IMG/VR virus record: IMGVR_UViG_3300020152_000014
Location: 1-42,017 of that record
DNA length: 42,017 nt
Reading direction: 5' to 3' (one strand)
From: a virus
Positions 128-42,017 of the stretch are shown in pieces (within the stretch, counting starts at the first letter, position 1; every line of letters starts with the position of its first letter). The position numbers and the translations under genes were made by a program. A model generated the notes under the pieces. It searched no databases and had not been told where the DNA came from. It saw nothing but the letters and a program-made list of their open reading frames with translations.

Positions 128-1058
128 CATCCACGGCGCAGATGGCCCCTTCCGTCGTCCGCCCGTTCCAGCCCCCCGTGAAGTTGATGCAGAACCGCGG
201 AATGACCAGGCGCGAAATGGGCACGCCGTTCACCGAGGTGATTGGGGGGCCGCCTTCCGTTGCCGGGGGGAACTCCGTCGTGATCGTGGTCGGGCTGACG
301 GGCTGGTAGTAGGTTCCCTCAAGGTCGGGATCGTCGCCCGCCGAGGCGTTGCGGCGCAGCCAGAACGTGGCCGTGAGGGAGAGGCGATCCGACGCCACGG
401 TCTCCACCACCAGCGCGCCCGTGACCGCCGCCGCGTCCTCGTCGCCGTAGATGGCCTGCGTGCCGACCGCATACCCCGGGACCACCCGGTCCGGCAGCGC
501 CGTGCCCACGCCGATGGTCACCGGAACCCTTCCCGATACAGTCGTGCCATAGTCGATGGAGGTGATCGGGTAGCTCGACGGCGTGCCCGAGCCCTTTATC
601 GAAAACTCGTTCTCGTTGGCGCGCGCCTCGATGCTGTCGCCGTAGAGCTCCCAATAGCCATCGGGGATTTCGAGGTCGATCTTGCCGAAGGAGCCGGCCT
701 GCAAGCGCCGATAGCGCACCAGCATCTCGTGCAGCTCGGCCGCGGTCATGTCCTCCTCAAAGGGGACCGTGACCACCAGCCGCGTGTCGGGCTCCAGGTT
801 TCTCGCCGTGCCGTTGCCGTCGAATACGGCCTGCGCCTCCGCGTCCGACTCCACCAGCGTGGCGAAGCCGATCATGTCGGTTACGCCCGTCAGCCCGGCC
901 TTGTAGGCCCGGTTGTCGCGGAACACGGCGATGGTGTCGGTAACCTCGGGATCGACCGAGGCCACGCCCTCCAGGTCTCCAAACACCGCCGTTCCCGGCT
1001 CGACCGTCTGGTTGGGCGCCCAATCCGCGGGGATCGTGGGCCGAACCGTCCAGGTCAT
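1..1058 (-). CDS. Tail spike-like protein, N-terminal part (split by the window ends)
   Basis: The frame opens at ATG 1058 (start MTWTVRPTIPADW), runs leftward off base 1, and continues in frame from base 41890 to the stop at 40972. The joined gene is 1977 nt, 658 aa. The N-terminal third looks like a virion-attachment module. From about residue 290 the sequence is Gly/Asn/Ser/Thr-rich with short repeated strands (for example GFSYNSNHTDAGC), as in right-handed beta-helix spikes that bind or cut host surface glycan. The start overlaps the adaptor stop by 4 bases (ATGA). The receptor or depolymerase role is inferred; no catalytic residues are identified. Confidence 0.8.
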   Translation of the reverse strand, partial: MTWTVRPTIPADWAPNQTVEPGTAVFGDLEGVASVDPEVTDTIAVFRDNRAYKAGLTGVTDMIGFATLVESDAEAQAVFDGNGTARNLEPDTRLVVTVPFEEDMTAAELHEMLVRYRRLQAGSFGKIDLEIPDGYWELYGDSIEARANENEFSIKGSGTPSSYPITSIDYGTTVSGRVPVTIGVGTALPDRVVPGYAVGTQAIYGDEDAAAVTGALVVETVASDRLSLTATFWLRRNASAGDDPDLEGTYYQPVSPTTITTEFPPATEGGPPITSVNGVPISRLVIPRFCINFTGGWNGRTTEGAICAVDGGMVRTVNCGFSYNSNHTDAGCIGFIKHPNSYWYSERDTFAG

Positions 1059-1660
1059 ACGCAGACCGCCACGGGGGTGAGCGTGTCCCCCATGCTGTCG
1101 CCAAGGGACTGACGCTCGAGATCGTTCAGGATCGTGTCGAGCAGGCCGCCGTACTTGGTGACCAGCTCGTCATCCACCAGATACAGCGCCGCCTCCAGAG
1201 CGACCGCGTTGAGGTAGATGTCGGGGTGGCTTTCGATCAGCCAGTTCGTGTCGTCTTCCGACGTAAGCGCCGGGATCTTCTGGTAGAACGACAGGTCGGC
1301 CACGTAGGCGTCATTGGGGCTCGGCAGATACCAGAACTCGCCGCCGACGATGCTGTAGTACTTGGGCTTCCCCGCATCGGAATTCGCCGCTCGGACATGC
1401 TCCATGGCCTGCGGGGTCAGGTAGACCAGCGGCTCATCATCGAGCGAGAAGGACAGGACGCCCCCGAAGTAGTCCGGCACGGCGGAGAACTCGTCCGCCA
1501 GCGTCGCCGTGGTGCGCACGACCATCTCCCGCGTGCGCAGCCGGCGGTTCAGCTTGGCCTCGGCCAGCTGGATGAACGTATCGACGTTGGCGATGATGTT
1601 GGTATCGCCGGGCCGGACGACATAGCCGGGGATCAGCGCGACGAGGGAGGCGTAGTCCAT
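1055..1660 (-). CDS. Head-tail adaptor (phage adaptor / P22 gp4-like)
   Basis: 201 aa, starting MDYASLVALIPGYVV. The N-terminal region has the adaptor signature: a short segment, then an aspartate-containing helix, then LAEAKLNRRLRTREMV, the lysine/arginine-rich helix that packs against the portal in short-tailed phages. The middle holds a beta-rich insert (GGEFWYLPSPND). The C-terminal half is helical (LNAVALEAALYLVDDE), which fits oligomer packing. It lies after the capsid genes and before the spike, where a portal-tail connector is expected. The family call rests on motif and position; fold-level similarity was not tested. Confidence 0.75.
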   Translation of the reverse strand: MDYASLVALIPGYVVRPGDTNIIANVDTFIQLAEAKLNRRLRTREMVVRTTATLADEFSAVPDYFGGVLSFSLDDEPLVYLTPQAMEHVRAANSDAGKPKYYSIVGGEFWYLPSPNDAYVADLSFYQKIPALTSEDDTNWLIESHPDIYLNAVALEAALYLVDDELVTKYGGLLDTILNDLERQSLGDSMGDTLTPVAVCV

Positions 1661-2313: not shown

Positions 2314-3270
2314 TCAGGTGAGGTCGGCCACGACTCCGCCGCCAAGTTGGTTGCGGCAGACGAGCAGCTTCTCGGCGATCATCTGGAACTTCTCGTTGTC
2401 GCCAGACTTCGCCAGCGCCTGCGTGAACAGCGGGCGCAGGGTGCCGACGGCCCACATTTCCGGGTCGATCAGCAGGCAGTCGCGGGTGAGGCCGTAGGCG
2501 TGCGGGATCAGGGTCAGGTTGCCGAAGTCCGAAACGTAGACATCAGCGCCGCCGATGATCGTCGCCAGCTTCTTGCCCGGAGCGTCAGCGCGGATATCCG
2601 CGATGCCGGTGAAGGCAGAGAACTGCTGCTTGTGGGTCGCACCCATGTAGGCCTGGCTGAACTTCGCGCCGTTCGAGAACGCGGTCGCGAGAACGGCCTT
2701 CAGCAGGGCCTCGGTGAAGGTCCGCTGCGTGCCGTTGGTGGCCGCAGCCACGACGCCGGCCGAGAAGCCGCCGTCCGAGCCGCCGGAGCCGCGGGAGTCG
2801 GCCGTGGTGATCCACGCCAGCGCACCGGCCGACTTGCCGGTCGTGGCGCCGTCTTCCGCCACCGACGCGTAGTTGCCGATGAAGCGGGCCTCCATGTCGC
2901 GGACGATCTCCTTGCCCTTCAGGAGCTTCTGGCGGGCGAGTTCCGACGCGCGGCCGGCGGTGTCCACGGCTTCGGCAGTGCCCGAGACCACACCGGACTT
3001 GGTGAAGATCTGCGTGCGGTTGCCGACGCGGGTGGGAGCGTTGGCGGCCCCCAGCGTGCCGGCGTCGTCGCCTTCCAGAGCCGCGTTGGTGGCGTCCGGG
3101 GAGGCGAGGGTTTCGGTCTGCCACTCGTGGTAGCGGTTCTTGACCTTGACCTTGCCGATGTTGGAGGTGAAGGGCGTCTCTTCCGCGGCGACGCGGTAGA
3201 TGACGTTTTCGAGGTCTTCGCGCACACCGACGTTGGTGGCCGAGACGACGGTATTGGTGGGTGCAGCCAT
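2314..3270 (-). CDS. Major capsid protein (SU10 / DUF5309-like)
   Basis: 318 aa, starting MAAPTNTVVSATNVGV. It carries the features of the SU10-type capsid family: an N-terminal arm, an early EETPFTSNIGK segment followed by a Tyr/Trp-containing strand (RYHEWQTETLAS), a variable glycine-rich domain near residues 140-175, and the closing segment EKFQMIAEKLLVCRNQLG. It follows the scaffold gene by 3 bases and precedes a strong hairpin, as expected for the most abundant virion protein. Length suits a HK97-fold shell protein. Identification is by pattern and context. Confidence 0.85.
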   Translation of the reverse strand: MAAPTNTVVSATNVGVREDLENVIYRVAAEETPFTSNIGKVKVKNRYHEWQTETLASPDATNAALEGDDAGTLGAANAPTRVGNRTQIFTKSGVVSGTAEAVDTAGRASELARQKLLKGKEIVRDMEARFIGNYASVAEDGATTGKSAGALAWITTADSRGSGGSDGGFSAGVVAAATNGTQRTFTEALLKAVLATAFSNGAKFSQAYMGATHKQQFSAFTGIADIRADAPGKKLATIIGGADVYVSDFGNLTLIPHAYGLTRDCLLIDPEMWAVGTLRPLFTQALAKSGDNEKFQMIAEKLLVCRNQLGGGVVADLT

Positions 3271-20385: not shown

Positions 20386-20783
20386 ATCCCATAACAGAGG
20401 AAGCTGGGCGAGTGACCGAACAGACCGCCCTCTCCGCTCCCCCCGCTCCGGTAGGGGGAGGGGCGCTCGATGGCGAACTCCTGTGCCGCGCCTTCACCGA
20501 GACGTTCAACGGCGGCGGCTGGACCGAGCCGTTCGGCTGGAACGACTACGACGACTCGGAAAAGCAGCGCTGGAACGTCGCCGCCGAGTGGCTCGCCGCC
20601 GCCCTCGCCTCCCCTCCCTCAGAGGGGGAAGGGCTCAAGCCGGTCAACATCAACGGGCAGTGGTTCGTCAAGGATGGCCCCCGAAACCTGACCGGCCCGT
20701 ATTCCTCGCGCGGTCAGGCGGAGGAGTGGATCGGCGCCCTGCACCCCGCCCCAGCTAATCCTGGGAAGGAGGAAGGGGCATGA
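20343..20783 (+). CDS. Hypothetical protein, 146 aa
   Basis: ATGA overlap. The first codons are an inverted boundary-repeat copy. The rest contains FNGGGWTEPFGWNDYDDSE, then WNVAAEWLAAALASPP, and a C-terminal small domain (NGQWFVKDGPRNLTGPYSS) that resembles short phage repeats. Low-complexity Pro/Gly stretches are encoded by pyrimidine-purine palindromes. Function unknown. Confidence 0.65.
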   Translation: MTSQNKPGTARHPIDPITEEAGRVTEQTALSAPPAPVGGGALDGELLCRAFTETFNGGGWTEPFGWNDYDDSEKQRWNVAAEWLAAALASPPSEGEGLKPVNINGQWFVKDGPRNLTGPYSSRGQAEEWIGALHPAPANPGKEEGA

Positions 20784-21613
20784 GCAACCCGTACCTCATC
20801 GAAGGCCCGGCGCTGATCTCGTTTAGCGGGGGCCGGACGTCCGCCTACATGCTGTTCAAGATCCTGGAGGCCCGCGGCGGCAAGTTGCCCGACGACGTGG
20901 TGGTCGCCTTCGCCAATACCGGCAAGGAGCGCGAGGAGACCCTGCGCTTCGTGCACGAGTGCGGGAGCCGCTGGGGCGTGCCGGTCGTCTGGCTGGAATG
21001 GCGCGACAACGATGCCGGTTTCGAGGCCGTAGGCTTCAACAGCGCCAGCCGGAACGGCGAACCGTTCGAGGCTGTGATCTCCGCTCACAACTCGGTGCCC
21101 AACAGCTTCATGCGTTTCTGCACGGAAGACCTGAAGGTCTCTGTGATGCAGAGCTTCGTCCGCTCGCGTGGTTGGACGCGCTGCGCGAACCCGGTCGGGC
21201 TGCGGCGTGACGAGGGAAAGCGCGTCGCCAAGCAATTAGCCAGGAACGCTGACCCTAAACGTTTGTGGGATGTGCTTTGCCCACTCTACCAAGCTGGCGT
21301 CGGGCGCGAGCACGTCATGGAGTTCTGGTCTGAGCAAGAATTCGACCTGCAACTCCAGCCTTACGAAGGGAACTGCGACCTCTGCTTCATGAAGGGCGAG
21401 CGCATTCTTGAGCGTCTGATCCGTGATGCCCCCGAGCGGGCTGAGTGGTGGATCACCCAAGAGGAACGCATCGGCTGGACCTTCAAAAAGGGCCGCCGGT
21501 CATACGCCGAAATGGCCGCTCATGTCAGGAGAACCCCACTCCTTCCTATCCTCGACCCCGATGAAGAATACGACGCCGAGTGCGGCCTCTGGTGCCCGGT
21601 GGAGGCCGCATGA
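20780..21613 (+). CDS. PAPS-reductase / adenine-nucleotide alpha-hydrolase family enzyme
   Basis: 277 aa. PP-loop motif SFSGGRTSAYM (SGGRTS at residues 16-21), AFANTGKEREETLRFV, and MRFCTEDLKV with C114, the usual pattern of PAPS-reductase-like enzymes that adenylate and then sulfurate or reduce a substrate. C199 and C202 (NCDLCFMKGE) plus a C-terminal AECGLWC could hold zinc or an iron-sulfur cluster. Phages carry such enzymes often; proposed roles include nucleic-acid modification. The actual substrate is unknown. ATGA-coupled on both sides. Confidence 0.8.
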   Translation: MSNPYLIEGPALISFSGGRTSAYMLFKILEARGGKLPDDVVVAFANTGKEREETLRFVHECGSRWGVPVVWLEWRDNDAGFEAVGFNSASRNGEPFEAVISAHNSVPNSFMRFCTEDLKVSVMQSFVRSRGWTRCANPVGLRRDEGKRVAKQLARNADPKRLWDVLCPLYQAGVGREHVMEFWSEQEFDLQLQPYEGNCDLCFMKGERILERLIRDAPERAEWWITQEERIGWTFKKGRRSYAEMAAHVRRTPLLPILDPDEEYDAECGLWCPVEAA

Positions 21614-22798: not shown

Positions 22799-23145
22799 GC
22801 GCGGACCCCATATCCTGTCTCTTCGCCGGCCGGGTCCTGGCTACCGCGAAGGACACCGCCGCGGCGCTCGGGATCGACGTGAAGACGCTCCGCACCATCA
22901 CCGAAGCAGGCTTGATCCGCGCCGTTCGCGTGGGGAAGGTGCCCCGCTACATCGAGGCAGACGTTCGCTCCTACCTCACGGAGAGCCCAGCATGGGTGTC
23001 TACAAGCCCGCGAAAAGCCGCTTCTGGCATTACGACTTCACCATACAGGGGGAACGGTTTCATGGCTCGACGGGCCAAGAAACCAAGCGGTCGGCCCTCG
23101 CCTACGAGCGTCGTCGTAGATCTGAAGCAGCCGAGGGCCGGCTAG
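22795..23145 (+). CDS. Excisionase-like / MerR-type helix-turn-helix protein, 116 aa
   Basis: ATGA overlap with the previous gene. Residues about 15-65 form a winged helix-turn-helix of excisionase type (TAKDTAAALGIDVKTLRTIT, AGLIRAVRVGKVPRYIEADV). The last 50 residues overlap the integrase start in another frame by 154 bases and are probably not constrained. As directionality factor it would bind attP-proximal DNA and favour excision. Confidence 0.7.
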   Translation: MSADPISCLFAGRVLATAKDTAAALGIDVKTLRTITEAGLIRAVRVGKVPRYIEADVRSYLTESPAWVSTSPRKAASGITTSPYRGNGFMARRAKKPSGRPSPTSVVVDLKQPRAG

Positions 23146-24113
23146 GCGATGCGGCGCAGATGCCGCTCGACATGGCCGCCGACCGCTGGTGGATCGAAAA
23201 GGGCAGCGAGCGCGGTGACGCCGCCACCGTCGCCAAGCGGCTGGAAACCCTGATCACGATCATCGGCCCCGACAAGAAGCTCTGCAACATCGACGGGGCC
23301 GTGGTGTCCGCGGCTGTCGAGATGCGCCGGCGCCAGACCTTCGCCCGATCCGACAAGCCCAACGCCAAGCGCTACCCGATCAAGCCCGCCACGGTGAACC
23401 GCGACATCATCGAGACCCTGCGGCCGATCCTCCAGCGCGCCAAGAAGCACTGGGGCGCCCGCGGACTCCCCGAGATCGACTGGGGCGAATACCGCCTGAC
23501 CGAGCCCGCCCCCGTCCAGCGCCTCTATACCGACGACCAGATGCTCCGCTGGCGCGAGGAGGCCCACAGGAGCTGCGAGGCCGCGAGCGCCGCGCTGGGC
23601 CTGCTGCTGCGCTACGGGATGCGCTACGACGAACTGTTCTTCGAACTGGACTGGTTCAAGCCCGACACGCGCGAGCTGGTCATGCCCGGCCACGCCCGCA
23701 AGCGCGACGTGTGGAACCACATTCCCCTGCTGGAGGCGGATGCGCGGGACCTGGCGGCCAGGATCGGCCGTGCGCGCGCCGCCGGGCTGGCTACAGCGTG
23801 GTTCTACGAGAAGGGAGGGCGGCTGGTCGCCCTGACCTACGGCGGGCTGAGCGAGCGGCTGGAGCGCGCGGCGCGCAAGGCCGGGCTCACCGAGAACCGC
23901 CTGATCCACGGCGCCCGCCACCACGCCGGGACCTCCCTGCTCCGCAGCACGAAGGGCAATCTCGCGCTGGTGAAGAAGCTCCTCGGACACGAGAACATCC
24001 AGTCCACGATGCGCTACGCCCACGCCCTGACGGACGACCTTCGCGACGCGCTCGAAGCAGACCATTCCCGGAATGGCCCCGGACCCCGAACCGACAAGGC
24101 GGAAAGCGCATGA
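22992..24113 (+). CDS. int: Tyrosine-recombinase integrase
   Basis: 373 aa from ATG 22992 (MGVYKPAKSRFWHYDF), the usual start of this phage integrase class; the open frame reaches upstream but lacks homology. Catalytic residues R211 (GMRYDEL), H306 and R309 (IHGARHH), H333 (LGHENI) and nucleophile Y342 (MRYAH). It recombines attP, lying 28 bases past its stop, with the 3' end of a host tRNA-Thr gene. Confidence 0.95.
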   Translation: MGVYKPAKSRFWHYDFTIQGERFHGSTGQETKRSALAYERRRRSEAAEGRLGDAAQMPLDMAADRWWIEKGSERGDAATVAKRLETLITIIGPDKKLCNIDGAVVSAAVEMRRRQTFARSDKPNAKRYPIKPATVNRDIIETLRPILQRAKKHWGARGLPEIDWGEYRLTEPAPVQRLYTDDQMLRWREEAHRSCEAASAALGLLLRYGMRYDELFFELDWFKPDTRELVMPGHARKRDVWNHIPLLEADARDLAARIGRARAAGLATAWFYEKGGRLVALTYGGLSERLERAARKAGLTENRLIHGARHHAGTSLLRSTKGNLALVKKLLGHENIQSTMRYAHALTDDLRDALEADHSRNGPGPRTDKAESA

Positions 24114-24141
24114 CAGATCAATTGCTTAAGGCCCGCGCCGA

Positions 24142-24191
24142 GCGGTTTTGTAAACCGAAGGTCGGGGGTTCGAGCCCCTCTGCCGGCACCA
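24142..24191 (+). other. attP: attP core: 3' half of tRNA-Thr(TGT) including CCA
   Basis: The 50 bases reproduce a tRNA from the anticodon stem to CCA: anticodon loop TTTGTAA (TGT at 24149-24151, Thr), variable loop AGGTC, T-arm GGGGG-TTCGAGC-CCCTC, acceptor strand TGCCGGC, discriminator A and CCA (24189-24191). No D-arm or 5' acceptor strand is present upstream, so it is not a whole tRNA. A copy lets integration rebuild the host gene. Next to it is CCCTTG-TGCAG-CAAGGG (24199-24215), a hairpin or possible integrase arm site. Confidence 0.9.
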
Positions 24192-36572: not shown

Positions 36573-36778
36573 AAGGCGGTCTTCACGAGGTCGCCGGCCG
36601 TATCGACCGTGTAGCGGTAGCGCAGGCCGTTCTCGTCGGTGAAGACGATCCCCGCCCCCGCCCCGACTTCGATGTCGGCCCCCTTGGAGTGGGTGTCCGA
36701 AAAGGCCCGCTGGATGAGGTCGATCACCTGCTGCCAGATGGTCGCGCTGTATTGCGGCGGGGCAAGCGGGAGCCTCAT
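36569..36778 (-). CDS. Hypothetical protein, 69 aa
   Basis: Starts [18 protein letters not shown] in an ATGA overlap with the tail hub stop. A helix (VIDLIQRAFSDTHSKG) followed by beta strands (GIVFTDENGLRYRYTVD). Unknown function. Confidence 0.65.
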   Translation of the reverse strand: MRLPLAPPQYSATIWQQVIDLIQRAFSDTHSKGADIEVGAGAGIVFTDENGLRYRYTVDTAGDLVKTAL

Positions 36779-38241
36779 CGGCGGCCTCGGGGTTTCATGC
36801 CGATGGTGATCACGCCCGCGCGGCTGTCGGCGCGCGTGGGGAAGTTGACCTGCATCTCGAACTGGCGGGCGGTGAAGCGGCAGTAGGCCGGCTGGGTGGC
36901 GAGCGAGACCGTCGCGAAGGTGGTTTCGGTCCCTTGCGGGGAGTCCTTGCCGTAGAACACGACTTCGGCCTGCCCCATGACCCGCTCGTCCCCGATCACC
37001 TCGTCAATGGTGTAGACGTTATCCCCGGCCCCAAGCTGGATCGGGGCGGTGCGCGCGTAGGGAACGGTCGAGCCGTAGTCGAGCCCGGCCTCGTGTTCGT
37101 AGACGTAGTTGGCGACGAGCAGGGGATAGAGGAACACGCCCCGCATGGCGCCGGAATAGCGGATGATCTCGTGCGTGGCCCACGTCCCGTTGCGGTAGTT
37201 CCAGGCTACGGCGCGGTCATTCTCCGAAGAGGCCGACGAGGGGTAGTGCCACCAGATTTCCCCGAACTCGACGTTGTGCCACGCCGCGACCTTGGACAGC
37301 TGGAGGTCGTTGATGTCCGCGAACACGTAGTCCGCCACTTCGCAGGGCATGTCAGAGACCGCCCCGCCGTTGTAGGTGTAGAAGCCGCCCCGACCCATCC
37401 AGACGGCCATGCCGTTGAAGGCCACGGCGCAGCCCTTCGAAACAGCGCCAACTTCACCCACCCGCTGCACGCCGTAGACGAACACCCCGCCGAGGTAGGT
37501 CATGGCGAAGGTCTCGGTCTGCGAGAACAGCAGGGTCTGCCCGCGGACCGACAGCCCGCAGATCAGGGCGGAGCGGGTCTCGAGGTCGAGGTCGCCCGCC
37601 TGATTGGTCGCCGCCGGGGTCCATGTGGTCTCGTCCGCCTGATCGGACCATTCGATGGCCCGGTCCTTGATGGCGACGACGAACTTCTCTTCCGTCACCA
37701 CCACGGCATTGCAGCCGGTCGGGGCGTTGGTGATGGCGGTCGCCGGGTTGGCGTTCACCAGATCCCAGATGTAGAGCTTGCCGTCGTCCTCCATGCAGCC
37801 GACCGGGTATTGGCCGAAGGTGTCCAGCGTCCACATGGAGGCGGGCTGAATGGTCCCGTTATCCGGCCGCGCCGTGCCGTAGGCCCCCGCGCCGTAGTTG
37901 CCGTAGCCGTAGCCCGCCGAGGCCGAGGCGTCCGCGCTGCCCGTGGTGAAGCCGGCCGGCGTGATGTCCGACAGGTCGCCCGTGGAGGCCATGGCGTAGA
38001 GCTTCTGCTCCGTGCCGATGAGGGCGTGGCGGACGGGGGGCGAGGCGTTGTCCCGCCAGGTCACGATGGCGCGGCCCTTGCCGGTGAGCGTGGAGGTGGA
38101 CTTGACGCGCCAGCCCCCGATGGGCTGGAGGTCCGGGCCGTTGGGCCAGCGCACGAGGTCGCTGATCCTCCAGCGCCCTTCGTTCTGCTTGTCCGTCCCG
38201 ATGGCGCGAACGCCCGGCGGGATGCCGAGAGGCTGCCTCAC
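36775..38241 (-). CDS. Tail hub / packaged-DNA stabilisation protein (P22 gp10-like)
   Basis: 488 aa; GTG 38241 chosen for the GTGA overlap with the fibre-like gene; the open frame extends upstream without homology. Begins [17 protein letters not shown]. Repeated beta-blade units with Trp and Asp-Gly turns ([56 protein letters not shown]) suggest the beta-propeller of P22 gp10-type hub proteins, which close the portal channel and anchor spike and needle. Confidence 0.75.
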
Positions 38242-38678
38242 GCGCCGTCGATCACGACGAAGGACACGCCGTCCGGGTCCGTGCCCGCTCCCGAGCCGGA
38301 GCCGGCCGCATAGTTCTTGTACCGAAGGACGGTCGTAGAAGTGAACTCGCAGACCACGCCGCCGAACTGTGACGCCGTGCTGTCGTGCGTCGTCACTAGC
38401 GCGAGGGCCGTATCCACGTCGGTCACGGGACTGGAAAGCGTGATGTTGTACTCGCCCGCCGACGCGCGGGCGACAGAGGACACGCCATAGGAGCCCGCCT
38501 GAAGCGTCGCCGTCGATCCACTGACGTTGAAGCGACCCCGGGCGACGTGGGGGATGCGCGCGTGAACGGCCGTGTCGATGGTGTCCGCGTTGGCGTTCCA
38601 CTTCGTTCCCCAGGTGTCGGGCGAAGCGCCGGGCTCCGGCTTTACAAGGCCAAGGTTGGTGGTCGTGGTGTCGGCCAT
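38238..38678 (-). CDS. Tail fibre-like protein, 146 aa
   Basis: ATG 38678 with GGAGA upstream. The first residues [19 protein letters not shown], then [15 protein letters not shown] are the well-known start of phage fibre and collar proteins. The rest is short beta strands ([19 protein letters not shown]). It is far shorter than a full fibre, so it may be an adaptor onto which another protein docks. Confidence 0.75.
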
Positions 38679-38682
38679 GGAG

Positions 38683-38720
38683 TCTCCATGTGGAAACGGC
38701 CCCGCAAAGGGGGCTGTGTC
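38683..38720 (-). terminator. Short hairpin between methyltransferase and fibre genes
   Basis: In the leftward transcript GCCCC-CTTTGC-GGGGC lies in the 63-base gap before the fibre-like gene. The stem is only 5 bp with no clear U-tract; a weak attenuator at most. Confidence 0.35.
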
Positions 38721-38741
38721 AGGCTCTGGTTGTGGGTGGTC

Positions 38742-39302
38742 TTAGGCCCGGTAGGCGGTCGCTATGATCGCTTCCCGTTCGGGGAACTTGGGTGTGGGCG
38801 AGGCTGCAAGCTCGATCAGTTCGAACCCGCGCAGGAGTTGGGCGTAATCGTGGTCCCAGCCGCGGTCACGGTCACGTTGGGCGGCCTCCTTGGCGAGGAC
38901 GCCGCGCTCTGAGAACGTGATCGCGCCGCGGATGCCGTCGAAGAACATCTGCGCCTCGGCCGGCGAGAGCTTTCCGATCTGGTTCATGGCGACGATCAGC
39001 GTCGTCGGAGAGGCCTCCCGGCGAACGATGGTCATTGCGTCCGCATGGATGAATGCGACGTGGCGGGCTGCCTCGCGGGCTACGTCCAGGCCTTCGGCGG
39101 AAGCGTCGGACCCTATCACCGATAGGCCGGTCGCGTTGTGCAGGTGCATCAGGAACTGGCCGGGCTGGACCCTCCCGGATGCAGAGCCGATCTCGACGAT
39201 CCTTTCCAGTGGCCGAGCGGCCGTCAGCTGCACGACCTGCTCCAGCGCACGGACGTAGGCGGGGCGGGTCCGAATGTCCTCGTATGCCACGGGCTTGGTC
39301 AC
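38742..39302 (-). CDS. Class I SAM-dependent methyltransferase-like protein, 186 aa
   Basis: GTG 39302 in a GTGA overlap with the sulfotransferase. A Rossmann pattern: motif I VEIGSASG (residues 36-43), VIGSDASAEGLDVAREAA with the acidic residue D66 for SAM ribose, VAFIHADAMTI as motif II, and LIVAMNQIGKLS as the later strand. The substrate part is not recognised. Translational coupling suggests it and the sulfotransferase modify the same product, perhaps a sugar on host envelope or virion. Confidence 0.7.
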   Translation of the reverse strand: MTKPVAYEDIRTRPAYVRALEQVVQLTAARPLERIVEIGSASGRVQPGQFLMHLHNATGLSVIGSDASAEGLDVAREAARHVAFIHADAMTIVRREASPTTLIVAMNQIGKLSPAEAQMFFDGIRGAITFSERGVLAKEAAQRDRDRGWDHDYAQLLRGFELIELAASPTPKFPEREAIIATAYRA

Positions 39303-40069
39303 GCCGGCTGCTCCCAGCCCGCCATGATCTCGTCCAGGTCGAGGCGGCGGCCCTTCAGGACCCGCCGGGCGACTTCGATGTCCGCCTCGCTCATTTCCGT
39401 CCGCCACTGCCCGATGCTGCCGTTGCGGGCCAGCGGGTGGGTAAGTGTCGGATTCGGGGTCAGCTCGATCTCCACCTGCCGGAACTTGTCGGCGGCTATG
39501 TCTGCGATGGTGCGGTCGATCAGCGCGTCGTCCAGAGGCTGTTCGATGAAGCGCACGACCCGGCGGAACACGTCGCCGGGCTGCTGGATCAGCTCTTCGT
39601 ACTTGACCGGCAGCACCTTGCGATCCGAGGCGATGAGGCGGGTGAACCCGACGTAGCCGCGCGCCCACTTCAGCGCGTAGTCACCGACCACGGCGCTGAT
39701 GTTCTCGACGTGCAGGCTCGTGTCTACGCGGGACTGATGACGGTAGTGATACTGGCTGACGATGAAGTCGAGCGGGTTACGGGCTTGGGTGATGATCCAG
39801 CCGGGGAAGGATTCCAGGCTCCCGAACGCGTGCTGGACCACGATGTCGCGCACGCCTTCGGGAAGCGGCCCGGTAGGCTCGTAGGGTTTGCCCTTGTTGA
39901 TGTAGTCGTAGCGCCGGTTCGGGTAGGCCTCGTGGGCCTCGCTGCCGAACAGCGCCCGCTCCTCGATCCCGATCAGCCGCCGCAGGTAGTTCACCACGAA
40001 GTGGTGCATGTAGTGCGTGCCCGACTTCGGGATCGTGGCCAGGCAGATGAAGTTCGTTTCGTCGATCAT
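39299..40069 (-). CDS. PAPS-dependent sulfotransferase
   Basis: 256 aa. Both cofactor signatures are present: the 5'-phosphosulfate loop ATIPKSGTHYMHHF (PKSGT at 14-18) and the 3'-phosphate motif ARNPLDFIVSQYHY (R97, D101, S105). Later segments VLPVKYEELIQQPGDVFRR and SIGQWRTEM match the end of the sulfotransferase fold. It would transfer sulfate from PAPS to a hydroxyl or amine, on glycan or small molecule. It sits among tail genes, transcribed late, and is coupled to a methyltransferase. Confidence 0.88.
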   Translation of the reverse strand: MIDETNFICLATIPKSGTHYMHHFVVNYLRRLIGIEERALFGSEAHEAYPNRRYDYINKGKPYEPTGPLPEGVRDIVVQHAFGSLESFPGWIITQARNPLDFIVSQYHYRHQSRVDTSLHVENISAVVGDYALKWARGYVGFTRLIASDRKVLPVKYEELIQQPGDVFRRVVRFIEQPLDDALIDRTIADIAADKFRQVEIELTPNPTLTHPLARNGSIGQWRTEMSEADIEVARRVLKGRRLDLDEIMAGWEQPA

Positions 40070-40090
40070 GGCGCGTGCTATATCGCGTCC

Positions 40091-40255
40091 ATGGACCGCG
40101 ATGAACCCGAGCCGGCCGACTTAATCACGCTTCAGGCGCTGGAGGCGCGCGCGGCGCAGATCGCCGATGAAGAGGCGCGCGCCGAGGCCCTTGGGCTGGC
40201 GTTATCGACGCCCGTAGAGTCGGACGTGACCGGCCGCGATGTTGGCGGCGCCTGA
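40091..40255 (+). CDS. Small plus-strand protein beside the sulfotransferase (moron-like), 54 aa
   Basis: ATG 40091 (MDRDEPEPADLITLQAL), acidic and helical (ARAAQIADEEARAEALG), with strong codon bias. Upstream TGCTATATC has the hexamer TATATC ending six bases before ATG, the same geometry as the 30506 gene, so a leaderless mRNA is possible. Its 3' end overlaps the minus-strand 40202 gene by 54 bases. Confidence 0.5.
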   Translation: MDRDEPEPADLITLQALEARAAQIADEEARAEALGLALSTPVESDVTGRDVGGA

Positions 40256-40693
40256 GTTGACGGTGATTCGCAGGCGGTCGTTCACTTCGGCCACGCCCCG
40301 CGTGCCGGCGCGGACTCCGCCCGACCCCTGCGGAATGCCCGTGGCGCCTTCCATGAAGGTCTCCTGATCGGCGTTGTTGAATTCGCGGAAGTAGAAGACG
40401 CCGTTGAACACGATGCTCGCCGCCTGAGCAGTATTCTGCATCGTGATCCCGGCCGTGGTGACGGTGCCGTTGCCGATGGACGAGTAGCCGGTGACACCCC
40501 AACCCGACTCCGTGCCGACCTGGGCGATCACCGTATCGGTGCCGCCCGCGTCGTGCTGGATGCCCCAGAACCTCAGGCAGAGCTCCCGGTAGCCGCCGAG
40601 GTCGTTGAACGCGACTTCGGTCACGTCCTCGGTGTAGTCCCAGGCCCCGATGGGAGCGCCCCAGGTCGACTGTGCTGCGCTGTCGATCTGCAT
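40202..40693 (-). CDS. Hypothetical virion-region protein, 163 aa
   Basis: ATG 40693 (MQIDSAAQSTWGAPIGA). Beta-rich with YRELCLRFWGIQHDAGGTD, then TAGITMQNTAQAASIVFNG, and a final GHVRLYGRR, like carbohydrate-binding or head-fibre jelly-roll proteins. Between spike and sulfotransferase genes. Function unproven. Confidence 0.65.
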   Translation of the reverse strand: MQIDSAAQSTWGAPIGAWDYTEDVTEVAFNDLGGYRELCLRFWGIQHDAGGTDTVIAQVGTESGWGVTGYSSIGNGTVTTAGITMQNTAQAASIVFNGVFYFREFNNADQETFMEGATGIPQGSGGVRAGTRGVAEVNDRLRITVNSGAANIAAGHVRLYGRR

Positions 40694-40694
40694 C

Positions 40695-40964
40695 TTAGGC
40701 CGCCGTCGCTTTGATGGTGGGGGGCGTGCCCATGGGGGCGGTGACCTTGATCGTGGCCAAGCCATTGGCCGGGACGAAGTAGTCGCCCGCGGCCGGCACG
40801 TCGCCGTTCGTGGTGATGTAGCTGTCCACGCTCGGGATGACCTGACAGACCACCGTGGCGGCGTTCAGCGCGACGGCCGAGGCGTGCGAGGTGGCGCGGT
40901 CATACGGGTGCTGCGGCTGGCCGAAGCGGTCCATCTGTCCGAACTCGAAAACCTTGATTGCCAT
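40695..40964 (-). CDS. Hypothetical protein, 89 aa
   Basis: Starts MAIKVFEFGQMDRFGQP. A beta-rich small protein (NAATVVCQVIPSVDSYITT, then GDYFVPANGLATIKVTA). Follows the spike gene by 7 bases. Perhaps an accessory of the spike; unproven. Confidence 0.65.
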   Translation of the reverse strand: MAIKVFEFGQMDRFGQPQHPYDRATSHASAVALNAATVVCQVIPSVDSYITTNGDVPAAGDYFVPANGLATIKVTAPMGTPPTIKATAA

Positions 40965-40971
40965 GTCAGTC

Positions 40972-42017
40972 CTATTCTTCAGGAACGGGGAAGATCTGTT
41001 CGAAGTCGCCGAGCGTCACGTCGCCCCGGGCGTAGACGCGCAGCACGGCGCTGGAGCCGGTCATGTTCACCACCCGCAGGTAGGTGGCATAGTCCTCGCC
41101 GTAGATGCCGATGGTGACCTTGCCGTCCGTCGCGCCTGTCTCCTCCGGCTTGGTGGTGACCACCTCCAGCGTGGAGCCGAGGTCCAGGCCCGTGGCTGTG
41201 GTGCTGGCCTCTTCCGGGGGCTCCGCCGTGGCGTCACCCGCGTTGGTGGTGAAGCGCACGATTCCCATCAGGTTCTGGTTCGAACCGACCAGTTCCAGCC
41301 ACCCGGCGCCGGAGAGCGTGGCCTGCATCACCCCGCCGTTGCCGTCGATATCCTTGGAGGCAGGCGAGACCCGCGGGCCGGGGTCGTAGAGCGGCCGGCT
41401 TAGGATCTCGAACCACCCTCCCCCGCTGGTTGTCCTCTGCGGGATCGTGCTGATGTAGTTCCCCGTTCGGACGGGGTTGCCGTAGACGAAGCCGTCGGCG
41501 TTCCAGCCCACGTCCAGGTAGGAGTTCTCGATAGAGCTGACGGCGTTGATGGTCAGCTTTCCGCTGACGCAGTAGACGCCGCGCTGGGCGTGGGTAATGC
41601 GGGTCGCAAGCACGTTCGCCACGCCATAGTTGCCGGTCCGCACCCCCGAAGTGCCGCCGGAGAGGAACGACTGATTGACGTTGGCGTAGCTGTCGTTCGC
41701 TGCGACGACGGTATGCGTCTTCCCGCCCCCGACACAGCAGCGCACCAGGAAGATGCGTCCGCCCTCCTGCGAGTTGATGACCTCGGCGTTAGACCCGCCT
41801 TCGGGGTGCGTGCCGATGCCCCCGCCGCCGTAGCAGGACAGCTGACCGCGGAACGTCCCGTCCATGGGCACGCGGACAACCTTTTCCGGCCCGCCCGCGA
41901 ACGTGTCGCGCTCCGAATACCAGTAGGAGTTCGGGTGCTTGATGAAGCCGATGCAGCCGGCGTCCGTGTGGTTGCTGTTGTAGCTGAACCCGCAGTTCAC
42001 GGTGCGGACCATGCCGC
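40972..42017 (-). CDS. Tail spike-like protein, C-terminal part (continues from the left end)
   Basis: C-terminal continuation of the gene that starts at 1058; bases 41891-42017 duplicate 1-127, so only 40972-41890 is new. This part carries beta-helix-like rungs (NAVSSIENSYLDVGWNADG, GNYGVANVLATRITHAQRG) and a distal TEPPEEASTTATGLDLGS linker before a final beta domain (VRVYARGDVTLGDF-like end, then EQIFPVPEE). The open frame here begins at an internal Met (42012) only because of the cut. Confidence 0.8.
   Translation of the reverse strand, partial: GMVRTVNCGFSYNSNHTDAGCIGFIKHPNSYWYSERDTFAGGPEKVVRVPMDGTFRGQLSCYGGGGIGTHPEGGSNAEVINSQEGGRIFLVRCCVGGGKTHTVVAANDSYANVNQSFLSGGTSGVRTGNYGVANVLATRITHAQRGVYCVSGKLTINAVSSIENSYLDVGWNADGFVYGNPVRTGNYISTIPQRTTSGGGWFEILSRPLYDPGPRVSPASKDIDGNGGVMQATLSGAGWLELVGSNQNLMGIVRFTTNAGDATAEPPEEASTTATGLDLGSTLEVVTTKPEETGATDGKVTIGIYGEDYATYLRVVNMTGSSAVLRVYARGDVTLGDFEQIFPVPEE
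41891..42017. repeat. Right copy of the 127-bp terminal direct repeat
   Basis: Identical to bases 1-127; see the left copy. Confidence 0.95.

Follow-up and report, generated by a model that had tools for sequence, protein, structure and literature searches.

The gtrABC genes of P22 and the O-antigen acetylases are phage-encoded genes that modify the receptor on the host. The sulfotransferase gene described here resembles them as cargo of a temperate phage that might change the envelope, but its chemistry is different and it lies in a late tail operon with no membrane protein alongside. Phage sulfotransferases as such are already known, and the present gene is probably an independently acquired case. 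They have been reported as auxiliary metabolic genes (AMGs), their function being called outright not known in one study (PMC10580990) and unclear in others (PMC8290583, PMC12285232, PMC13079714); we found no statement on adhesin neighbourhoods in these four papers. The 'PAPS reductase/sulfotransferase' genes of Burkholderia phages (PMC10269572, PMC2920897) are not this enzyme; the papers themselves describe them as CysH-type or in ambiguous terms.

Adhesin genes beside phage sulfotransferases

Cyanophage-type sulfotransferases (PF13469), such as those of S-SKS1, S-SRM01 and S-SCSM1, are likewise phage-encoded and often adjoin adhesin genes. They differ in belonging to a subgroup with a GLPRSGST loop, and their named carriers are large cyanophages rather than temperate podoviruses; phmmer gave no match between our protein and the S-SKS1/S-SRM01 group in either direction. 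The sulfotransferase of L058 (IMGVR_UViG_3300024348_000401), a relative of our phage, finds these three cyanophages and AG-345 marine viruses, and at least 591 IMG/VR contigs carry an enzyme of this group. Several carriers are T4-like cyanophages, to which lysogenic conversion does not apply.

The gene directly upstream of the sulfotransferase encodes a Kelch propeller in S-SKS1 and AG-345-O18, an RCC1 propeller in S-SRM01 and AG-345-E08, and a glycine-rich fibre-like protein in AG-345-E15. Such neighbours were present in 16 of 35 clusters derived from the best 80 IMG/VR loci. Random draws from the other genes of the same loci gave a mean of 8.1 and a maximum of 15 in 5000 draws, a comparison that overstates independence, as the clusters are related to each other and the effective sample is smaller. 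In the remaining clusters, members of virion structural, tail spike and baseplate families are among the upstream neighbours; glycosyltransferases and 2OG oxygenases sometimes lie downstream. S-SCSM1 is a counter-example, its sulfotransferase gene lying among endonuclease genes. Tandem arrays of Kelch-like adhesin, sulfotransferase and Kelch-like adhesin occur in five IMG/VR contigs (L165, L179, L180, L189 and L191). In AG-345-O18 (L156:4469-8597) the sulfotransferase is followed by what appear by eye to be genes for an RfaE-like cytidylyltransferase, a sugar kinase, a HAD protein and an epimerase-like protein, the whole group lying between genes for an adhesin and a fibre.

The phage genome and its PAPS supply

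The window analysed here is the whole 42,017-nucleotide IMG/VR record IMGVR_UViG_3300020152_000014. Positions 1-127 recur exactly at 41891-42017; with this 127-bp repeat counted once the sequence closes into a 41,890-bp circle, and both ends join into a single 658-aa frame. The genome is therefore complete, circular or circularly permuted. The initial annotation of this DNA had missed its circularity, as it had the methyltransferase gene discussed below and the phage sulfotransferases already described (PMC10580990, PMC8290583). Major capsid, portal, terminase, gp4-like, gp10-like, ejection, endolysin and exonuclease proteins are encoded, together with a tyrosine integrase (22992-24113, plus strand; phrog_1, 9.5e-24). 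Close behind the integrase gene, a 51-bp attP core (24141-24191, plus strand) matches the 3′ end of a Caulobacterales tRNA-Thr(TGT) at 98% identity, the match having been sought among relatives of one Caulobacterales genome. Integrase and attP together make the phage temperate, in keeping with the lysogeny that the annotation had implied, and by its gene content it is a temperate podovirus with P22-like tail genes (gp4 and gp10 homologues).

Relatives were collected with the major capsid protein (2314-3270, minus strand; phrog_1328, 2.8e-94). Related capsid loci come mostly from Alphaproteobacteria, including Caulobacterales, Hellea, Azospirillum and Erythrobacteraceae, and the host is probably a member of the Caulobacterales or close kin. 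PAPS should be available to the phage enzyme because APS kinase is encoded in 35 of 41 Caulobacterales genomes; the enzyme would draw on this host pathway.

A PAPS-reductase-family protein is also encoded (20780-21613, plus strand; phrog_424, 1.4e-47), with a C-terminal ECGL motif and a PF01507 match of only 0.002, below the cut-off. If a true CysH, it would compete with the sulfotransferase for the same cofactor. Its presence would suit an AMG role, in which the sulfotransferase modifies a small molecule in sulfur metabolism and has nothing to do with the adjoining tail genes. Cytosolic SULTs do use small molecules as substrates, and metagenomic studies count phage sulfotransferases among the AMGs (PMC8290583, PMC13079714). 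We nevertheless consider a metabolic role improbable, given the recurrent position of such genes beside adhesins and the placement of ours outside the early region that holds the reductase-like gene.

Family, motifs and origin of the enzyme

The frame at 39299-40069 (minus strand, ATG start, 256 aa) encodes a PAPS-type sulfotransferase of the cytosolic SULT type, as judged from its sequence. Pfam profile search matched PF00685 at 4.1e-18 (66.2 bits against a cut-off of 22), with residues 8-239 aligned to positions 4-248 of the 255 in the profile, and PF13469 at 2.6e-6, which bears out the family that the initial annotation had assigned and had wished to see checked by such a search; PHROG and NCBIfam models gave no match. 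The best PDB sequence matches are SULT enzymes (SULT2A8, 7d1x, 7.7e-8), and solved SULTs align across almost the full length of the protein. A two-sequence profile of our protein and its bacterial homologue L151 reached SULT1C3 at 1.1e-11 with PKSGT, RNP..VS and RxGxxGxW aligned. The strength of the PF00685 match and the near-full-length SULT alignment argue that the motifs are not chance matches. Synonymous codon use in this frame (0.47 per codon) is like that of this phage's structural genes, the other five frames scoring −0.71 to 0.27. A plus-strand ORF over the gene (39053-40255) was dropped as a coding reading, as codon use lends it no support.

Both PAPS-binding signatures, which the annotation had called intact, are indeed present. 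PKSGT (residues 14-18; 40016-40030, minus strand), the predicted 5′-phosphosulfate-binding loop, aligns with SULT and bacterial homologues. The predicted 3′-phosphate-binding motif RNPLDFIVS (residues 97-105; 39755-39781, minus strand) comprises RNPLD at 97-101 and Ser105, eight residues past Arg97 and so fitting R(x7)S. Two further elements went beyond that annotation. RNGSIGQWR (residues 215-223; 39401-39427, minus strand) aligns with RKGxxGDWK of human SULTs as a C-terminal PAPS-binding motif. His80 (39830-39832, minus strand), within VVQH, is a candidate catalytic base: in several bacterial homologues the aligned residue is the histidine of KTH, and in a low-confidence model a predicted strand (74-79) precedes His80, but the PDB alignment pairs a different histidine with the SULT KTH histidine. 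Across seven aligned homologues P14, S16, G17, R97, P99, D101, S105, R215, G217 and W222 are invariant. The protein thus shares with cytosolic SULTs of PF00685 the PKSGT loop, the R...S 3′-phosphate site, the RxGxxGxW motif and length, but is shorter, is only ~14-22% identical in fold matches and lacks the KTH lysine, VVQH standing in its place. On these motifs PAPS-dependent catalysis is very probable.

Structure prediction, which the annotation had also proposed, gave a poor model of the fold. From the single sequence the pLDDT was 34.5; a 22-sequence alignment of remote phage sequences raised it to 51.5 (pTM 0.45), still of low confidence. All 50 listed PDB matches of the latter model in Foldseek are sulfotransferases, the best at E 9.5e-6, with TM scores of only 0.35-0.44. 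The model lends weak support to the assignment.

Close relatives are scarce. None was found by tblastn or pattern scan in INPHARED, PLSDB, IMG/VR or GTDB contigs, the pattern scans being weak negative evidence as they reach close relatives only; tblastn against 50,697 phage records gave no match even at E 10, and a plasmid search gave none. One of 398 genomes of the order Caulobacterales (G151) contains a full-length homologue, L151, at 29-30% identity (1e-19), and a phylum-wide genome draw gave partial matches only. L151 is apparently an ordinary chromosomal gene beside HisZ/HisS-like and redox genes, and the 3.8 kb inspected around it contains no phage genes, in contrast to the phage tail cassette of our gene. 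Because phage relatives were not found and the bacterial homologue is rare, the gene was probably acquired independently from a rare bacterial lineage.

The gene might be a passenger, recently acquired without a selected function or inactive through loss of the KTH lysine. The gene is missing from nearly all relatives, which would fit. The frame is intact over 256 codons, however, retains all other PAPS-site residues and has phage-like codon use, and L151, its closest bacterial homologue, likewise lacks the lysine; a passenger is, on balance, quite improbable. The missing lysine would still count against the functional reading set out below.

The gp4-gp10 slot and candidate targets of sulfation

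The gene lies in a slot of ~4.7 kb, bordered by genes for a gp4-like virion protein (1055-1660, minus strand; phrog_2941, 1.3e-38) and a gp10-like protein (36775-38241, minus strand; phrog_3287, 2.3e-67; 'phage stabilization protein' in INPHARED). In order of transcription the slot holds the spike, an 89-aa protein, a 163-aa protein, the sulfotransferase, a methyltransferase and a fibre, so the annotation's placement of the enzyme inside the tail, or receptor-binding, cassette is correct. The probable tail spike runs across the contig ends (N-terminal part 1-1058, C-terminal part 40972-42017, minus strand); its 658-aa frame has no family match, and the label rests on position and length. The 89-aa tail-cassette protein (40695-40964, minus strand) has no family match either. 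The 163-aa protein just upstream of the sulfotransferase (40202-40693, minus strand) gave no Pfam or PHROG match and no phage homologue, and is by position a probable tail or adhesin accessory. The 146-aa tail-fibre-like protein (38238-38678, minus strand) matches phrog_11355 at 1.8e-7.

Related phages show that this slot is exchangeable. Both genes are present in 57 related loci. In 21 of these gp4 and gp10 abut (gap <200 bp); in the other 36 they are 0.7-8.4 kb apart, and the inserts there are mostly spikes and fibres, and also tail chaperones, lysozymes, peptidases and occasional enzymes. The fetched loci contain no homologue of the spike C-terminal part or of the 89-aa, 163-aa or methyltransferase proteins, so the content of the slot is peculiar to our phage. 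Of 49 related records, many of which are fragments, 48 gave no PF00685 match; a 13.9-bit PF13469 match in the genome G008 was below the cut-off and set aside. One other of the 49, L058, has a sulfotransferase, a lower bound because most records are fragments. L058 shares the capsid family (MCP 44%) and the same gp4-gp10 slot, but its sulfotransferase is unrelated and of another Pfam subgroup, and is paired not with a methyltransferase but with an APS-kinase-like/cytidylyltransferase-like fusion. That fusion follows the sulfotransferase in the tail cassette (L058:11260-12863), an arrangement that suggests a self-supplied sulfation pair. A glycosyltransferase-like gene (Anp1, sub-threshold) lies between the capsid and gp4-like genes of L058 (7126-7791).

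In our phage the partner is a class I methyltransferase-like gene (38742-39302, minus strand, 186 aa), which matches Methyltransf_25 at 8.6e-6, with 26.8 bits against a cut-off of 27, and gave no relatives in tblastn or pattern scans. Its GTG start overlaps the sulfotransferase stop by 4 bp (GTGA). Gaps of 132 bp and 63 bp flank the pair, whereas elsewhere in the run from spike to gp10 successive genes touch or overlap. The overlap, the gaps and the peculiar slot content make the pair look like inserted cargo. Sulfotransferase and methyltransferase might together decorate phage DNA, as in systems proposed by Iyer et al. 2013 according to a passage of PMC10829341, but we recognized neither a base hydroxylase or hydroxymethylase nor a base kinase near the pair, which lies among late tail genes, and we regard DNA modification as very improbable.

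The annotation had the sulfotransferase transcribed with the spike and fibre genes. Gene order on the same strand agrees with this, but the flanking gaps leave room for a separate transcript of the pair, which may exist. The 63-bp gap between methyltransferase and fibre genes (38679-38741, minus strand) contains a GC hairpin (−17.4 kcal/mol, z −2.0) that is terminator-like with no U tract. No sigma-70 promoter match was found in the 132-bp gap by a scan that is insensitive for this bacterial group. A 54-aa ORF (MDRDEPEPADLITL...) lies antisense in this upstream gap (40091-40255, plus strand), with weak codon support (0.20); it starts six bases after GCTATATC, which we take to resemble a Caulobacter −10 element, and is a possible leaderless gene.

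In a rival reading the enzyme would sulfate, and its partner methylate, the cytosolic precursor of an envelope glycan such as a capsule or O-antigen. This could mask the receptor in a lysogen, or at a late stage of infection, and so keep progeny or other phages from adsorbing. The phage is temperate, receptor-altering genes are expected to travel with the spike, the gaps and the hairpin after the pair would permit separate transcription, and genomes that contain related prophages frequently encode a number of sulfotransferases themselves. Set against this, the pair lies on the same strand within the late tail operon, the 132-bp gap yielded no promoter match, albeit in that insensitive scan, and cyanophages that are not known to be temperate show this gene neighbourhood too. 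Envelope modification is a real if minority possibility; in view of the temperate lifestyle and of a possible separate transcript for the pair, it is nearly as likely as a virion target.

We favour, tentatively and at rather less than even confidence, the reading in which a SULT-type sulfotransferase and a methyltransferase were acquired as cargo in the exchangeable gp4-gp10 receptor-binding slot of a temperate alphaproteobacterial podovirus. The sulfotransferase would probably be made late, together with the spike and fibre proteins. It would place sulfate on a component of the phage-host recognition interface, most likely an adhesin of the phage itself or a glycan attached to that adhesin, and the methyltransferase would modify the same substrate. 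That the enzyme works at this interface is somewhat probable taken alone; whether its target is the virion rather than a host envelope glycan is about an even call. A place beside the adhesins within the late operon, together with the recurrence of that arrangement in cyanophages, favours a role in adsorption, with virion slightly ahead of envelope; adjacency to adhesins would also suit receptor modification. No glycosyltransferase that could build an adhesin glycan was identified in the window, and proteins adjacent to the sulfotransferase have no enrichment of acidic-tyrosine sulfation sites. The best tyrosine site in the 163-aa protein (WDYTED) was rejected as evidence, ranking about tenth of 204 tyrosines.

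Two mutually unrelated groups of sulfotransferases show linkage to adhesins, as do at least two lineages of phage. The interest of the finding lies in this linkage and in the pairing with a methyltransferase. It is conceivable, if doubtful, that sulfotransferases linked to fibre, Kelch and RCC1 adhesins form a widespread virion-sulfation system that changes receptor binding, represented here by a SULT-type enzyme with a methyltransferase. The linkage turns an AMG listing into a testable question, whether the sulfate is placed on the virion or on the receptor. We know of no sulfated virion protein, and a sulfated phage adhesin, if real, would represent a novel form of virion modification.
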